Source of the DNA: Myxococcales bacterium
GTDB taxonomy: Bacteria > Myxococcota > Myxococcia > Myxococcales > Myxococcaceae
Direction: 5' to 3'
Assembly (NCBI GenBank): GCA_020846875.1
Contig: JADLDB010000026.1
Location: 1-42,570 of the forward strand
Length of the DNA: 42,570 bases
Part shown: positions 34,763-42,570 of the stretch, piece after piece
Numbering within the stretch: position 1 is the first letter of the stretch
How the letters are laid out: each line of letters begins with the position of its first letter
Translations under genes and position numbers: made by a program
The notes under the pieces: model-generated
Told to the model about the DNA's origin: nothing
What the model saw: only the letters and a program-made list of their open reading frames with translations
Databases searched by the model: none

Positions 34763-36244
34763 TCAGCCCTTGGAGTTTTCGGGCTTTGGCTCCGCCTTCG
34801 GCAGCTGGAGGCCCGCGCTCCGGGCGAGCCCCATCACGCCTTCTACCGCGGCGGCGACGTAGCCGAAGGGGTTGGCGCCGTCGACGGCGGTGACGTGCAC
34901 CTCGCCCATCTTCTGCTGGAAGGCCTGGGCCAGCTCGGGCAGCTTGTTGGCGACGGCGAGCTGGATCACCTCGGGGGACAGCGTGTTCTCGATCTCGCGC
35001 TGACGCTCTGCGCGATCGAGCTCCAGCTTGGCGAGGTGCTGCTGCTTCAACACCTCCAGCTCCACGGTGCGCGCTTCGATCTCTGCCAGCACGCGCTTCG
35101 CCTCGGCGGCCTCGGCCTGGGATCGCAACAGCTCGATGGTCTGCGCTTCCTCGGCCAGGCGAGCCTGGTGCTCGAGGTGATCCTGCTCCGCGCGCAGGCG
35201 AATCGCCTCCATCTCGGCGCGAAGCTTCTCACCCTGGAGCGCGGCTTCGTTCGAGAGCTTGTCGAGCGCGGCGGACTGCTCGGCCAGGGTCTGGCGCTGC
35301 TTGAGCTCCTGCTGCACGGCGATGCGCGAGAGGTGCTGTTCGCGTTCGGAGGCAAGCTGTGCCGCCTTGATGGCCCGCTCCTGGGCGAGCCGCTGGTCTT
35401 CCACCCGCGCGTCGCTGGCCAGCTTCTCGAGCCGCGCCTCCTCTTCGGACGCCTGGGTGCGCCGGCGGATCTCGTCGGACGCCTCCACCTTGGCGAGCTG
35501 CAGCTGCCGCTGGGTGGACGTCTCGTCGGTGCGGACCGCGCGCTCCTTGGCCAGCTCCGCCTCGCGGGCCAGCCGCTCCTGATCCTGGCGGAAGCGCGCC
35601 TGCATGTTGGCGAACACCTGGGCGCTCATCACCTTCACGTCCTGGATCTCGATGGTGTCCACCACCAGGCCCCAGCCGCGATCGGTCGCGTCCTCCACGC
35701 GGCCGATGCCGGAGACGACGGGGGCGATCTCGCGGATGAGCTCGGTGGACAGCGCTTCCTTCCGCCGGGTGAGGCATTGCTCGACGGTGAGGTTGGCGAT
35801 CAGCCGCCGGGAGGCGCCCACGCACATCTCTTCCATCATCTGGGCCAGCTTCTCCTGCGCGCGCTCGGGGAAGCTGAAGTTCAGCATGCGAAAGGCGATC
35901 AAGGGCTCGGCGATCCGGTACACGGCGATGCCCGTCACCTTCACGCCCACCTTCTCCTGGGTGATCTGATCGGCGACGAAGTGCAGGCGCTGGATGCTGG
36001 TGGGGACGATCGCCACCGACTCCCACGGCCACTTGAAGAGGGTGGCGCCCTGCCCCTGCGAGGTGACGCGCCCGCCGCGCATGCGGATCAGAAACTCGCT
36101 GGGCTTCGCGCTGATCCACCCCCAGCGCTTGGTCTTCTCCGGATCCTCCTCCGGCTTCCCGCGCCGCCAGCCCTCGCTGTACCGGGTGGGCTGGTGATCG
36201 GACGGAAGCGACTGGACGATCCCGGACGGGACGGGGCGGCTCAT
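34763..36244 (-). CDS. SPFH/Band 7 protein with long coiled coil
   Basis: The 493-residue protein has an SPFH (stomatin/prohibitin/flotillin) domain at about 45-220, with TSIQRLHFVADQITQEKVGV, VYRIAEPLIAFRML and LVVDTIEIQDVKVMS. A Glu/Ala/Arg-rich coiled coil spans about 220-440, and the C-terminal region is small. No N-terminal transmembrane helix or signal peptide is seen, so membrane association, if any, would be peripheral. Flotillin-like proteins organise membrane microdomains and protein quality control. AGGAG lies eight bases before the ATG at 36244. dsbD begins 58 bases after its stop and could be co-transcribed. The gene is divergent from the isc operon across 251 bases. Confidence 0.83.
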   Translation of the reverse strand: MSRPVPSGIVQSLPSDHQPTRYSEGWRRGKPEEDPEKTKRWGWISAKPSEFLIRMRGGRVTSQGQGATLFKWPWESVAIVPTSIQRLHFVADQITQEKVGVKVTGIAVYRIAEPLIAFRMLNFSFPERAQEKLAQMMEEMCVGASRRLIANLTVEQCLTRRKEALSTELIREIAPVVSGIGRVEDATDRGWGLVVDTIEIQDVKVMSAQVFANMQARFRQDQERLAREAELAKERAVRTDETSTQRQLQLAKVEASDEIRRRTQASEEEARLEKLASDARVEDQRLAQERAIKAAQLASEREQHLSRIAVQQELKQRQTLAEQSAALDKLSNEAALQGEKLRAEMEAIRLRAEQDHLEHQARLAEEAQTIELLRSQAEAAEAKRVLAEIEARTVELEVLKQQHLAKLELDRAERQREIENTLSPEVIQLAVANKLPELAQAFQQKMGEVHVTAVDGANPFGYVAAAVEGVMGLARSAGLQLPKAEPKPENSKG

Positions 36245-36412: not shown

Positions 36413-36437
36413 ATAGTGGACTTGACGAGTCCGCTTC
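36413..36437 (+). promoter_or_regulatory. IscR-like type 1 operator, upstream copy
   Basis: ATAGTGGACT-TGACG-AGTCCGCTT matches the E. coli IscR type 1 site (ATASYYGACT-N5-AGTCRRSTAT) in the ATA, the GACT-N5-AGTC core and several flanking positions. The arms AGTGGACT (36415-36422) and AGTCCGCT (36428-36435) are inverted repeats with one mismatch. It covers the -35 box, so a bound [2Fe-2S] Rrf2-family repressor would block RNA polymerase. Confidence 0.6.
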
Positions 36438-36451
36438 GGAACCGTTACAAG
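36422..36451 (+). promoter_or_regulatory. Promoter of the isc operon
   Basis: TTGACG (36422-36427) and TACAAG (36446-36451) with an 18-base spacer match the -35 at five and the -10 at four of six positions. Transcription would begin near 36458, leaving a 38-base leader before the iscS ATG, with GAGGG as ribosome site. Confidence 0.55.
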
Positions 36452-36458
36452 AGATCTC

Positions 36459-36483
36459 AATCTGGACTCCTTTGGTCCACATT
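36459..36483 (+). promoter_or_regulatory. IscR-like operator, downstream copy
   Basis: A second GACT-N5-GGTC site (core 36465-36477) lies 46 bases after the first, around the predicted transcription start. The arms TGGAC (36463-36467) and GTCCA (36475-36479) are inverted repeats. The match to the type 1 consensus is weaker than the first copy (GGTC for AGTC). A leader hairpin is an alternative reading. Confidence 0.4.
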
Positions 36484-36495
36484 CGAGGGTGAGTC

Positions 36496-37857
36496 ATGAA
36501 GCTGCCGATCTACATGGACTACCACGCCACCACGCCGATGGATCCGCGGGTGCTGGAGGCGATGGAGCCGTACTTCCATGACGACTTCGGCAACGCGGCG
36601 TCGCGCAACCACGCCTTCGGCTGGAAGGCCGAGGCGGCGGTGGAGAAGGCGCGCAAGCAGGTGGCGGCGCTGATCGGCGCCTCGGACAAAGAAATCGTCT
36701 TCACCTCCGGCGCGACCGAGTCGGACAACCTGGCGATCAAGGGCGTGCTCGAGTTCTACCGGGAGAAGGGCGATCACCTCGTCACGCTGCAGACCGAGCA
36801 CAAGGCGGTGCTGGACACCTGCAAGCGGCTCGAGCGGCAGCGCCAGGAGCGGATCGACGAGCTCAAGCTGATGCGCCTGATGGAGTTGACCGGCCGGGAC
36901 GTGAGCGGCGAGGAGCTGGCGGCCCTGGAGATCAAGCACGAGCTGGAGAAGGACGAGGTGCTCAAGCGCTGGATCGGCGCCGTCCGCACCGGGGCGCGCG
37001 TCACGTACCTGAAGCCGAAGAAGGACGGACTGGTCGATCTGGCGGAGCTGGAGGCGGCGATCACCGACAAGACGGTGCTGGTGTCGATCATGCTCGCCAA
37101 CAACGAGGTCGGCGTGGTGCAGCCCGTGGCCGAGATCGGCGCGCTGTGCCGGAAGAAGGGCGTGCTGTTCCACACCGACGCGGTGCAGGGCCTGGGCAAG
37201 GTGCCGTTCGACGTGGAGTCGTCGAAGGTGGATCTCGTCTCGATCACCGCGCACAAGATGTACGGGCCCAAGGGCGTGGGCGCCTTGTACGTCCGCCGGA
37301 AGCCGCGCGTGCGCCTCGCGCCGATCATCGACGGCGGCGGTCACGAGCGGGGCATGCGATCCGGCACGCTGAACGTCGCGGGGATCGTCGGCTTCGGGAA
37401 GGCCGCCGAGCTGGCGAAGGCGGAGCTGGAGGCCGAGGCGAAGCGCCTCCTGGCCCTGCGCGAGCGGCTGTGGAAGGGCCTGTCCGCGAAGCTGGACATG
37501 CTGCACCTCAACGGCTCGATGGAGCACCGGCTGCCGGGCAACCTGAACGTCTCCTTCGCGTACGTCGAGGGCGAGGCGCTGATGATGGCCATCAAGGACG
37601 TGGCCGTGTCTTCGGGCAGCGCGTGTACGTCGGCCTCGCTGGAGCCGTCCTACGTCCTGCGCGCGCTGGGCATCGACGAGGATCTGGCGCACTCGTCCAT
37701 CCGCTTCGGGCTGGGCCGCTTCACCACCGAGGAAGAGGTCGACTTCGTGATCGACCTGATGGTCAAAGCCGTCACGCGGCTGCGCGAGATGAGCCCGCTC
37801 TACGAGATGGCCCGCGAGGGCATCGATCTCAAGTCCATCCACTGGGCGGCACACTGA
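36496..37857 (+). CDS. iscS: Cysteine desulfurase IscS with a 50-residue insertion
   Basis: This 453-residue PLP enzyme takes sulfur from L-cysteine as a persulfide and passes it to IscU and other acceptors. Key residues are visible: His102 in EHKAVLD, PLP-lysine Lys254 in [10 protein letters not shown], and the persulfide Cys377 in [21 protein letters not shown] (E. coli His104, Lys206, Cys328). The His-Lys spacing is 152 instead of 102 residues, a 50-residue insertion at about 114-164 made of charged helix ([19 protein letters not shown]), placed before the [12 protein letters not shown] strand. The rest has the usual length. It is the first gene of iscS-iscU-iscA-hscB-hscA-fdx, with two IscR-like sites in the promoter. 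Confidence 0.97.
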
Positions 37858-37873: not shown

Positions 37874-38293
37874 ATGGCGTACACCGACAAGGTCATCGAA
37901 CACTTCGAGCACAGCCGGAACGTCGGCACCCTGGACAAGGATGATCCGAACGTGGGGACGGGCCTGGTAGGCGCGCCCGCGTGCGGCGACGTGATGCGCC
38001 TGCAGCTCAAGATCACCGACGACGGCACCATCCAGGACGCGAAGTTCAAGACGTTCGGCTGCGGCTCGGCGATCGCCTCGTCCTCGCTCGTCACCGAGTG
38101 GGTGAAAGGCAAGTCCATCGAGGACGCGGTGAAGATCACCAACAAAGAGATCGCGAAGGAGCTCTCGCTGCCTCCGGTGAAGATCCACTGCAGCGTGCTG
38201 GCCGAGGACGCGATCAAGGCGGCGATCAAGGACTTCCAGGAGAAGCGCGCCAAGCGGCTCGGCCCGGCGGCGGCGGCCTCGGAGACGCGATGA
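37874..38293 (+). CDS. iscU: Iron-sulfur cluster scaffold IscU
   Basis: The 139-residue scaffold builds a [2Fe-2S] cluster from IscS sulfur and iron. The three ligand cysteines fall at Cys37 (GAPACGD), Cys63 (FGCGSAIASSS) and Cys106 (KIHCSV), the same numbers as in E. coli IscU, and Asp39 is present. LPPVK (99-103) is the HscA-binding motif, fitting the presence of hscA in the operon. A strong AGGAGG lies five bases before the ATG at 37874. The C-terminal tail (RLGPAAAASETR) is slightly longer than usual. The stop overlaps the start of iscA (ATGA). Confidence 0.98.
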   Translation: MAYTDKVIEHFEHSRNVGTLDKDDPNVGTGLVGAPACGDVMRLQLKITDDGTIQDAKFKTFGCGSAIASSSLVTEWVKGKSIEDAVKITNKEIAKELSLPPVKIHCSVLAEDAIKAAIKDFQEKRAKRLGPAAAASETR

Positions 38294-38682
38294 TGACCCA
38301 GACCGTCGCCACGCAGACCCCGGCGGCTCCCCTCTCGGTCGGCAGGCCCGCCGGGAAGGGCATCGGCCTGGCCGACAACGCGGTGGAGCGCTTGAAGCGC
38401 CTCTTGTCCGAGCGCAACACCCCCGAGGCTGGCCTGCGGATCGCGGTGAAGGGCGGCGGCTGCTCAGGCCTCGCGTACCACATGGAGTGGGCGGAGAAGG
38501 CGAAGGAGCGGGACAAGGTGTTCGAGCGCGAAGGCGTGCGCGTCTTCGTGGATCCCAAGAGCTACCTGTACCTGATGGGCACGGAGCTCGTGTACGAGGA
38601 AGGACTGCTCGCCTCGGGCTTCAAGCTCAAGAACCCGAACGAGAAGGCTGCGTGCGGCTGCGGCGAGTCCTTCACCGTCTGA
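38290..38682 (+). CDS. iscA: Iron-sulfur cluster carrier IscA
   Basis: The 130-residue A-type carrier has the three conserved cysteines: Cys58 in GGGCSGLAY, and Cys122 and Cys124 in ACGCGESF. About 25 extra residues (TQTVATQTPAAPLSVGRPAG) precede the usual N terminus (GIGLADNAVERLK). The ATG at 38290 overlaps the iscU stop (ATGA); the adjacent ATG at 38293 is equally possible and gives one residue less. A-type proteins deliver clusters to [4Fe-4S] apo-proteins. hscB begins 19 bases downstream. Confidence 0.96.
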   Translation: MMTQTVATQTPAAPLSVGRPAGKGIGLADNAVERLKRLLSERNTPEAGLRIAVKGGGCSGLAYHMEWAEKAKERDKVFEREGVRVFVDPKSYLYLMGTELVYEEGLLASGFKLKNPNEKAACGCGESFTV

Positions 38683-38701: not shown

Positions 38702-39223
38702 ATGGACTACTTCGAGCTGTACGGAATTCCACGCAGCGCGGAGCTCGACGTGAAGGCGCTCGAGCAGCGCTTCCGCGAGCTGTCGCTCGAGGTGCACCCG
38801 GACCGCCTGGTGGGCGCCGACGCGCACGCCCGCAGGGTGGCCGCCGAGAAGACCGCGTCGCTCAACGAGGGCGTCCGGGTGCTGAAAGATCCGGTGCGGC
38901 GCGCGCTGTACCTCTTGAAGCTCAAGGGCGTGGACCTCGAGAGCGAGCAGGCGGCGGCGAAGCTGCAGATGCCGCTGGAGTTCCTCGAGGAGATCATGGG
39001 GCGCCGCGAGGCGCTGGAGGGCGTGAAGGTGAAGCGCGATCTCGATCGGGCGCACGCCATGGCCGCGGAGATCCGCACCGCCCGTGACGCGCACCTGGCC
39101 CAGGCGAAGGCCGCGCTGGAGAAGGACGACGTTCCAGCCGCCACGCAGGCGCTCGGACGGCTGCGCTACTACGCGCGCTTCCTCGAAGAGGTGGACGCGT
39201 TCGAAGAGGAGCTGCTGTCGTGA
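38702..39223 (+). CDS. hscB: Fe-S assembly co-chaperone HscB
   Basis: This 173-residue J-protein presents IscU to HscA and stimulates its ATPase. The J-domain carries VHPDR with His32-Pro33-Asp34, the same positions as in E. coli HscB. The C-terminal three-helix domain contains [18 protein letters not shown], the IscU-binding face. The start is ATG at 38702 ([10 protein letters not shown]), typical of the family. Its stop overlaps hscA (GTGA). No zinc-finger Cys motif is present at the N terminus. Confidence 0.96.
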
Positions 39224-41091
39224 AGGGCTACCTGCAGATCCACGATCCGTTGAAGCCGAAGGGCCAGGTGGTGGGCATCGATCTGGGCACCACCAACTCG
39301 CTCGTCGCCGCGGTGGTGAACGGAAAGCCCGTCTGCGTCCCGGTGGACGTGGGTGACGCGCTGCTGCTGCCGTCCGTCGTGCACTACCACCGGAACGGCG
39401 GCGTGATCGTCGGTCGGCCCGCGGTGGAGCAACTGGCCGCGCACCCGACGGACGTCATCAAGTCGGTCAAGCGCTTCATGGGCAAGTCCCTGGGCGACGT
39501 CGAGACGAAGAAGCTGGGCGCGTACCAGTTCGTCCCAGGCAGCAACGGGATCGTCCGCTTTCAGGTGGCGGGTGGGCAGCCGGTGACGCCCATCGAGGTG
39601 TCGGGGGAGATCCTCCGGCAGCTCAAGCGGCGCGCGGAGTCGCACTTCGCGACGAAGGTGGAGCAGGCCGTCATCACCGTGCCGGCGTACTTCGACGACG
39701 CGCAGCGGCAGGCGACGAAGGACGCGGGCCGGCTGGCGGGGCTGGAGGTGCTGCGGCTGCTCAACGAGCCCACCGCGGCGGCGCTGGCGTACGGCCTCGA
39801 CAAGGGCGCGCAGGGCCTCTACGCCGTCTTCGATCTCGGCGGCGGGACGTTCGACGTCTCCATCCTCGAGCTGGTGGAGGGCGTCTTCCAGGTGAAGGCC
39901 GTCGGCGGTGACTCGGCGCTCGGAGGGGATGACTTCGATCGAGCCATCGTCGAGAAGGTGATGGCGGCGCGGGGGCTGACCGGCCCCACGCCCTCTCAGG
40001 TAGCGACGCTGCTGCAGGCGGCGCGCGCGGCCAAGGAGCGGCTCACCGACGTGGAGGTGACTGAGCTCGTCTTCGAAGGAGTCCCCTTCCCTGTCAGCCG
40101 TGTCGGCTTCGACGAGTGGATCGCGCCGCTGCTCAAGAAGACAGGGCTGTCGGTGAAGCGCGCGCTCAAAGACGCGGGGGTGACGCCGGCCGACGTGAAG
40201 GGCGTGGTGCTGGTGGGCGGCGCGACGCGGGTGCCGGCGGTGCGACGGTACGTCGCGGAGCTGTTCGGCCAGGAGGCGCTCTACGATCTCGACCCCGATC
40301 AGGTGGTGGCGCTGGGCGCGGCGGTGCAGGCGGACCTGCTGACCAACGAGGCGCGCAAGGACGAGGTGCTGCTGCTGGACGTAATCCCCCTCTCGCTCGG
40401 CCTCGAGACGATGGGCGGCATCGCGGAGAAGGTCGTCACGCGCAACTCGTCGATCCCCACCGCACAGGCGCAGGTGTTCACCACGTTCCAGGACGGCCAG
40501 ACGGCCATGGACATCCACGTGGTGCAGGGCGAGCGGGAGTTGGTGAAGGACTGTCGGTCGCTGGCGCAGTTCCGGTTGTCGGGGATCCCGCCGATGGCGG
40601 CGGGTATGGGCCGCGTGCAGGTGACCTTCAAGGTGGACGCGGACGGGATCCTCTCGGTGGGGGCGAAGGAGCTGTCGACGGGCGTGGAGCAGTTGATCAC
40701 CGTGAAGCCCACGCACGGCCTCACCGACGAGGAGATCGAGCAGATGCTGCTGGACTCGATCGATCACGCCGAGGACGACATTCGGAATCGGCTGCTGATC
40801 GAGCAGCAGGTCGAGGCACGGCGGATGCTCATGGACGGCGCCAAGCAGCTCAAGGAGAACGGGGATCTGCTCGCCGCGGAGGAGCGGCGCGCACTCGAGT
40901 CCTCCCTGTCGTCACTCGAGACGCTCGCGGCGACGACGAAGGATCACGAGGCGCTGAAGGCGGCGATCCACGAGACGGACACGCTCGCCCGCCCGTTCGT
41001 AGAGAAGATCATGAACCGCGCCATCGGGAAGGCCGCGGTCGGCCACAAGATGGAGGAGTTCGAGGCCCATGCCCCGGATCGTCTTCCGTAG
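39220..41091 (+). CDS. hscA: Fe-S assembly chaperone HscA (Hsp70 family)
   Basis: The 623-residue Hsp70 protein uses ATP to release clusters from IscU. Family motifs are [12 protein letters not shown] near residue 17, the second phosphate loop [28 protein letters not shown], and [13 protein letters not shown] at the end of the ATPase domain. The substrate-binding domain starts around 380 ([16 protein letters not shown]). Length fits HscA (about 616), and the C terminus lacks the EEVD-like or extended tail of DnaK. Position between hscB and fdx confirms the assignment over DnaK. The GTG start at 39220 overlaps the hscB stop, and the last 23 bases overlap fdx. Confidence 0.96.
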
Positions 41092-41452
41092 CCCGCTGCA
41101 GGAGTTCGCGGTGGAGGTGCCCGACGGCACGACCATCCTCGAGGCCGCTGAGAGGTGCGGCGCGCAGGTGGGGCACTCGTGCGGCGGCGTGTGCGCGTGC
41201 TCGACGTGTCACGTGTGGGTGAAGAAGGGCCTCGAGTCGCTGCCCGAGCAGGACGACCTGGAGCTGGACCGGCTCGACCAGGCGTTCGACGTGAAGGCGA
41301 TCTCGCGGCTGGCGTGCCAGGCGAAGGTGAGCGGCGAGGACCTCGACGTGTGGATCACCGAGGAGTCGCTGAAGGCGTTCATGGACGAGAACCCGGACGT
41401 ACGGAAGGCCCTCGAGGCCGAGGGGAAGTGGCCGCCGCCGAAGTTCGCGTAG
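41069..41452 (+). CDS. fdx: Isc-operon 2Fe-2S ferredoxin
   Basis: The 127-residue adrenodoxin-type ferredoxin supplies electrons for cluster assembly. The ligand pattern C-x5-C-x2-C is Cys38, Cys44 and Cys47 ([15 protein letters not shown]), with the fourth at Cys83 (RLACQAK); Cys30 and Cys42 are extra. The first 100 residues match Fdx. The remaining tail ([20 protein letters not shown] and KWPPPKFA) is longer than in E. coli and loosely recalls IscX-like helices, but that is not established. The ATG at 41069 lies within the end of hscA (23-base overlap). No iscX follows; the operon ends here. Confidence 0.94.
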
Positions 41453-42316: not shown

Positions 42317-42570
42317 ATCGCCGCGTGGTCGTCGTCCTTGCCGTCGCCGGAGGTTTCGCGGGCTGCATCGACTGGGCGGGCGCCGAAGAGGAGTTCTGCC
42401 GCGAGAACCCGACCGCTGCCGGCTGCGAGGCATTCCTCGATGCCGGCACGGGCGGAGGCGGCGGAGTGGGAGGCGGAACGGGCGGCGGCGGAGTGGGAGG
42501 CGGCACGGGCGGAGGCGGCGGAGTGGGAGGCGGAACGGGCGGCGGCGGAGTGGGAGGCGGCACGGGCGGA
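42313..42570 (+). CDS. Gly-rich repeat lipoprotein, partial (runs off window)
   Basis: A GTG at 42313 overlaps the upstream stop (GTGA) and opens a lipoprotein signal ending in FAGC (Cys18). After a short Cys-containing segment (CRENPTAAGC) the frame becomes a run of GVGGGTGGG units encoded by a 57-base tandem repeat and is still open at the window end, 86 codons in. Similar Gly linkers join the lipid anchor to a surface domain in other myxobacterial lipoproteins, as in the gene at 29209. The mature domain lies outside the window. Confidence 0.75.
   Translation, partial: MNRRVVVVLAVAGGFAGCIDWAGAEEEFCRENPTAAGCEAFLDAGTGGGGGVGGGTGGGGVGGGTGGGGGVGGGTGGGGVGGGTGG
42466..42570 (+). repeat. 57-bp tandem repeat encoding Gly-rich linker
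   Basis: The unit at 42466-42522 restarts at 42523 and matches as far as the window end (48 bases). Each 57-base unit encodes 19 residues, GVGGGTGGG-like, in two sub-units of 27 and 30 bases. In-frame length keeps the reading frame intact if copy number changes. Confidence 0.85.

Follow-up and report, generated by a model that had tools for sequence, protein, structure and literature searches.

Known operators of Fe-S cluster assembly genes

The closest described system is that of Myxococcus xanthus (PMC9973013). RisR, an Rrf2 repressor encoded by the first gene of the suf operon, is described there as acting on both assembly systems, and its footprints at the isc and suf promoters share the motif T(t/g)GAC-N7-GTCC(t/a). 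Breaking the box raised an isc reporter 3-fold and a suf reporter 4-fold, and deletion of risR raised isc expression more than disruption of the box did (PMC9973013). In the feedback model for M. xanthus, the repressor loses its cluster when clusters are scarce, upon which isc is de-repressed (PMC9973013). RisR belongs to an Rrf2 group distant from IscR, whose type 1 site at the E. coli iscR promoter (NC_000913.3) serves here as the second point of comparison.

The isc operon and the dyads before iscS

The window, i.e., the whole stretch of 42,570 nucleotides that was analysed, carries an isc operon that begins directly with iscS and contains no iscR, as a preliminary description of this DNA had stated; iscS is followed by iscU, iscA, hscB, hscA and fdx. 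The features are as follows.

36413..36437, plus strand: predicted operator 1, 25 bp, ATAGTGGACTTGACGAGTCCGCTTC; 15.3 bits, p 0.0018, two consensus mismatches; holds the predicted -35
36422..36427, plus strand: predicted -35, TTGACG, within operator 1
36445..36450, plus strand: predicted -10, TTACAA, 17 bp after the -35; weak consensus match
36459..36483, plus strand: predicted operator 2, 25 bp, AATCTGGACTCCTTTGGTCCACATT; 18.4 bits, p 0.0002, one consensus mismatch; over the predicted transcription start
36496..37857, plus strand: iscS, cysteine desulfurase, 453 aa (NF010611, 699.8 bits, cut-off 548)
37874..38293, plus strand: iscU, scaffold (PF01592)
38293..38682, plus strand: iscA-type carrier, start not fixed (PF01521; TIGR00049, 122.4 bits)
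38702..39223, plus strand: hscB, co-chaperone (PF07743, PF00226)
39220..41091, plus strand: hscA, chaperone (TIGR01991, 818.8 bits)
41069..41452, plus strand: fdx, [2Fe-2S] ferredoxin (PF00111)

Downstream, a tRNA gene follows fdx in M. xanthus, whereas none was found in the window from fdx to its end, where a 57-bp GC-rich tandem repeat (42444-42570) reaches the end of the contig. Upstream, the minus strand has a divergent open reading frame (34763-36244) with room for up to 493 aa; no Pfam or NCBIfam match was found for it, and it adjoins iscS in several close relatives as well. The IscS proteins of the window's family have a family-specific insert of about 47 residues (about residues 117-163), which is seemingly absent in other families of the order, their matches being split at the insert.

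Before iscS lie two dyads of the form GGACY-N5-RGTCC on the plus strand, GGACTTGACGAGTCC (36418-36432, core GACT-TGACG-AGTC at 36419-36431) and GGACTCCTTTGGTCC (36464-36478, core GACT-CCTTT-GGTC at 36465-36477). Both are less than 90 bp from the iscS start at 36496, their centres are 46 bp apart and an ATA (36413-36415) stands upstream of the first; position, spacing and flank had all been described correctly. The 25-bp operator consensus is AWWRTGGACY-N5-RGTCCACWTT, and the p values given above are per 400 bp of upstream sequence under a first-order Markov null. The bare cores alone are not significant in the window: GACTN5RGTC is observed 3 times against 3.1 expected, and GGACYN5RGTCC twice against 0.44 expected, two or more copies being reached in 9 of 100 shuffles. 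Their frequency being unremarkable, the case rests on their position at iscS and on their conservation.

In the whole 7.06-Mb genome of the window (G000, a draft of 200 contigs listed as 100% complete), the 25-bp consensus with up to three mismatches is found at operators 1 and 2 and at one further place, and the reversed pattern, used as a control, matches once on either strand. The further box (C56:127352-127376, locus L378; 20.0 bits) precedes a sigma-70-family gene by about 105 bp and has no counterpart upstream of the 21 orthologues examined, a search of 24 genomes at E <= 1e-70 having given an orthologue in 22, including the window's own genome; because the control also gives one match per strand, this box is treated as unproven. 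A genome scan for the site at other Fe-S genes, which had been proposed as a check, thus returned as its sole further good match a box that is not conserved and belongs to a sigma-factor gene. Two further dyads, C196:25130 (0.7 bits) and C40:43078 (3.3 bits), were dropped for their low scores.

The sites lie at the predicted isc promoter, as RisR boxes do on isc or risR-suf. TTGACG is a plausible -35 of the iscS promoter, contained in site 1, and site 2 spans the predicted start, in agreement with the earlier proposal that the first dyad covers the -35 box and the second lies near the start. The predicted TTGACG/TTACAA promoter is weak, and a sigma-70 consensus promoter scan reported none at the isc promoter.

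As to the identity of the motif, site 2 fits the RisR box fully and site 1 fits it except for the last base (G). The window shares with M. xanthus the T(t/g)GAC-N7-GTCC(t/a) dyad, its overlap with the promoter and the iscS-first operon without iscR, but differs in having two copies 46 bp apart instead of one protected region per promoter, and in the promoter element involved: the predicted -35 falls within site 1, while in M. xanthus the footprint at isc takes in the start and most of the -10 (PMC9973013). With the E. coli type 1 site the window has in common GAC-N7-GTC, the ATA three bases before it and a predicted feedback on isc; it differs in the flanks TGG/CC(A), in a regulator that is not IscR and in the absence of iscR from the operon. 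The type 1 core GACT-N5-AGTC is matched by site 1, whereas site 2 ends in GGTC. The label "IscR-type" given to the sites earlier is not supported: the resemblance is genuine, GAC-N7-GTC occurring also at the E. coli iscR promoter, but the motif is that of the RisR box and the Rrf2 protein of the genome is not an IscR by its score (see below). Of 24 RisR-type genes examined, 21 have GAC-N7-GTC in the 300 bp preceding them, so the motif goes with an Rrf2 regulator. The window's dyads look like RisR boxes, not established IscR sites, and are predicted to be Rrf2-type operators.

Rrf2 regulators encoded in the genome

M. xanthus has risR and suf, whereas no RisR, SufB/SufD or IscR over cut-off was found in the window's genome. 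It encodes one full-length Rrf2 protein (G000:C130:31505-31945; PF02082, 115.7 bits), which is unlinked and is termed "MQH-type" after its first residues; a second, weak Rrf2 match falls within a membrane-protein-like frame. The preliminary description had expected an Rrf2-type regulator encoded elsewhere and would have counted the lack of any Rrf2 protein against its reading; such a protein is present, as a putative reader of the sites. With the SUF-linked Rrf2 proteins of the RisR model TIGR02944 (suf_reg_Xantho) it shares the Rrf2 domain and three cysteines, but it scores 82.4 bits against a curated cut-off of 110.65, is not the first gene of a suf operon and occurs in a genome that has no SufBD core. 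Its cysteines C96, C107 and C113, invariant in 12 aligned MQH-type sequences, are spaced C-x10-C-x5-C instead of the C-x5-C-x7-C suggested earlier; by domain and by these three conserved cysteines, the MQH-type protein qualifies as a putative Fe-S-binding Rrf2 regulator.

A classical IscR of the E. coli kind acting on type 1 sites in this genome would account for GACT-N5-AGTC and the ATA three bases before it, which fit the E. coli site at -127 of iscR. However, the only full-length Rrf2 protein reaches 60.7 bits with the IscR model (cut-off 207.55), and in the family this motif is known as the target of RisR, a member of a remote Rrf2 group, so that this reading is extremely improbable.

Of 23 neighbourhoods of MQH-type genes, at least 13, including that of the window's genome, have the gene divergent to a PHP-domain-like gene (product read by eye) and not beside Fe-S genes. 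Most risR genes have a box of their own, whereas the upstream region of the MQH-type gene in the window's genome has none (p 0.43); at p <= 0.003, a box-like site precedes 2 of 23 MQH genes (G006, G039) and 21 are without one. Self-regulation of MQH genes via the box, which would apply to 2 of 23 at best, was discarded. In our own alignment, lysines at E. coli IscR positions 44 and 47 are common to MQH-type and RisR-type proteins, and both are without the Ser40, Glu43 and Gln44 of E. coli IscR. A regulator tree with long branches and unsettled bootstrap gives a RisR group (98/94) from which the MQH-type proteins are separate, the latter not being resolved as one group because of a long branch joining them. 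The RisR-type gene (TIGR02944) adjoins two SufBD-core genes in 14 of 14 genomes with both in the SufBD set. In 34 of 36 family genomes SufBD and RisR occur together or are missing together, the exceptions being G009 and G023.

Conservation and promoter layouts in the family

Of 30 iscS loci compared within the family, which is that of Myxococcus (the window and 29 relatives), 28 have GAC-N7-GTC no more than 350 bp before the gene, which disposes of the concern, voiced in advance, that the sites might not be conserved in relatives; one of the two misses is a contig starting inside the site and the other has a changed left arm. The iscS promoters of the family show three layouts, and these classes and the five genera below were named after the sites had been seen. 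In the first layout, with 13 printed examples, a single site directly follows the -10 (TATAAT or a variant). In the second, a single site contains the predicted -35 (G002, G005, G018, G019, G033 and G021; for G005 the layout script took a stray weak site, and the TTGAC was located in the real site by reading the sequence). The third, to which the window belongs, has a pair of sites at a distance of 43-50 bp, with the predicted -35 inside the first and the second over the predicted start, and is shown by every one of the 11 genomes scored from genera g1, g2, g5, g14 and g17; the first site contains TTGAC in 10 of these 11, the window included, and TTGCG in G001.

Doubling itself is not special to the window's lineage, since a second, weaker site also occurs 87-90 bp further upstream in seven RisR-bearing genomes (G007, G011, G027, G060, G067, G074 and G081), and G033 has a marginal one; the loci with such a box include L017 and L018. 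What distinguishes the five genera is the pair at 43-50 bp with the -35 inside. The variation in centre spacing among the 11 genomes, about two thirds of a helical turn, speaks against a fixed same-face contact of two rigid dimers, and the cooperative repression suggested earlier finds no support in helical phasing; two-step repression, with one site over the -35 and one over the start, is possible.

RisR over cut-off is absent from all 12 genomes of the two-site genera examined (including G031, whose contig starts at site 2), and SufBD from all 8 covered by the SufBD search. These counts and the listed completeness of 100% make it very unlikely that RisR and suf exist in the window's genome and were lost in assembly gaps, as its state as a draft of 200 contigs might suggest.

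The boxes might also be relics, left when RisR was lost along with suf and now without a reader, as the lack of RisR over cut-off and of SufB/SufD in the window's genome would allow. Against this, the close pair is present in 11 of 11 scored genomes of the five RisR-less genera named above. Moreover, in an IscS tree, for which SH-aLRT is the only support measure and which includes 37 of the 43 family rows tried and 3 outgroup rows, the four rows with a -35 in a single site and the six two-site rows form one group (SH-aLRT 100), and the six two-site rows are nested together (SH-aLRT 90) among MQH-only genomes, so that a second box arose or persisted in the absence of RisR. Six g5 genomes were missed by the start pattern used for this tree, and G031 is labelled two-site with a contig that holds only site 2. 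Strong boxes also occur in RisR-less G020, G006 and G023, near the base of the family in the same tree, where support is weak. The boxes are thus improbable as relics.

Box and regulator across the order

The association of box and regulator was scored on 138 iscS upstreams, five of them from second isc copies and the others from 133 genomes. The initial draw comprised 137 genomes, from which six were dropped for lack of an iscS N-terminus at E <= 1e-38 and to which G013 and G026 were added. With G031 left unscored (only 42 bp upstream), 132 genomes were scored; the second copies, in five large genomes (G135, G027, G007, G015 and G069; loci L371-L375), stand outside the class counts and have no box over threshold. 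A box was called where the score exceeded 99% of a null of first-order Markov resamples. RisR was called at its curated cut-off and MQH-type at 200 bits or more, the listed hits lying at 205-258 or below 100; G013 was called MQH-type from separate searches. The matrix was trained on 11 risR-promoter sites and the isc sites of RisR-only genomes, so the RisR-only class (box in 48 of 48) is no test of it, whereas the other classes are.

Among MQH-only genomes, 34 of 40 have the box; of the six under the threshold, five have a decayed site and G111 has none. Where both regulators occur, the box is found in 25 of 35 genomes, i.e., 15 of 15 outside family f5 and 10 of 20 within it. In three f5 genomes (G045, G059 and G057; loci L092, L093 and L094) the same box also precedes an aconitase B-like gene, for which L094, the single locus checked, scores 668 bits with TIGR00117 over the half on the locus, under the full-length cut-off. 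Genomes with neither regulator have the box in 3 of 9. Of these nine, G002 (78% complete) and G024 (87%) have a good box although no hit to MQH-type or RisR was found in them, whereas G056 (86%) has a borderline score (p 0.02); G026 is placed here as it was outside the MQH search set, and shows a 76.7-bit hit like that of the MQH-type. The five that are 89-100% complete (G040, G044, G046, G049 and G053) are all without the box and belong to two lineages only, which makes them a lead and not proof.

By hand-tallied genus, the box occurs in 22 of 26 MQH-only against 0 of 3 neither genera (Fisher p 0.0096, kinship ignored), or in 22 of 26 against 2 of 6 if less complete genera are included (p 0.023, kinship ignored). 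A matrix trained on risR promoters alone still places 26 of 39 MQH-only rows (of 41) over the 99% null. The box does not depend on RisR, being present in genomes from several families in which RisR over cut-off is absent and, within the window's family, in RisR-less genera that the IscS tree places near the base with weak support.

Which protein reads the box

As RisR and suf were not found, the reader in the window's genome is most likely its only full-length Rrf2, the MQH-type protein; that RisR-type genes usually carry the box and MQH-only genomes keep it without RisR is counted in favour of the same protein. On balance, we consider it probable that the dyads are RisR-type isc operators, read most likely by this unlinked putative regulator, its DNA binding being predicted, like the -35 and -10. 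Several observations stand against it as reader: the MQH gene of the window's genome and 20 others of the 23 are without a box, G002 and G024, both incomplete genomes, have boxes without either regulator, six MQH-only genomes score below the threshold, and the MQH-type and RisR proteins form separate groups. Family f5 is a counter-case, as only half of its scored genomes with both regulators have a box over the threshold.

Some of these observations would fit a third, so far unseen regulator that reads the box throughout the order, with RisR sharing it in some genomes and the MQH-type protein otherwise employed. The box is indeed found in RisR-only genomes, in MQH-only genomes and in the two incomplete genomes with neither, and the neighbourhoods of the MQH genes, often divergent to the PHP-like gene, together with their mostly box-less promoters point the same way. 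In M. xanthus, however, the effect of the risR deletion exceeds that of box disruption and RisR footprints on the box, so that a third factor is unneeded there (PMC9973013). The GAC-N7-GTC spacing is common to RisR and IscR sites, and the five nearly complete or complete genomes without both Rrf2 types are also without the box. A third regulator is, on this evidence, rather unlikely.

If the MQH-type protein is the reader, a homodimeric Fe-S Rrf2 repressor would bind each dyad; occupation of site 1 would block sigma at the -35 and that of site 2 the transcription start, and when clusters are scarce the repressor would lose its own cluster and release the DNA, upon which iscSUA-hscBA-fdx would be made. 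Binding by the cluster-loaded form and de-repression upon cluster loss are carried over from M. xanthus RisR, and we infer them for the MQH-type by analogy.

Tentatively, and at somewhat less than even chance, the isc operator may be older than RisR and the MQH-type protein its original repressor, with RisR, arriving with suf, taking over the word in the Myxococcus branch and some genomes still having the two readers side by side; a shift of the promoter within the window's lineage would have left the -35 inside one operator and the second over the start, both predicted to be bound.

The RisR motif was already known, and the operator pair is real. In the literature searched, mostly without subscription papers, we found no mention of the close pair, of the embedded -35 or of the survival of the box without its known reader, and no further publication that deals with the sites or with a second regulator of isc in myxobacteria. 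In a lineage that yielded neither RisR nor suf, the presence of the same operator as a close pair points to another Rrf2 protein as its reader. With one DNA word, two proteins and genomes that have either or both, the replacement of a regulator on a fixed operator becomes testable.
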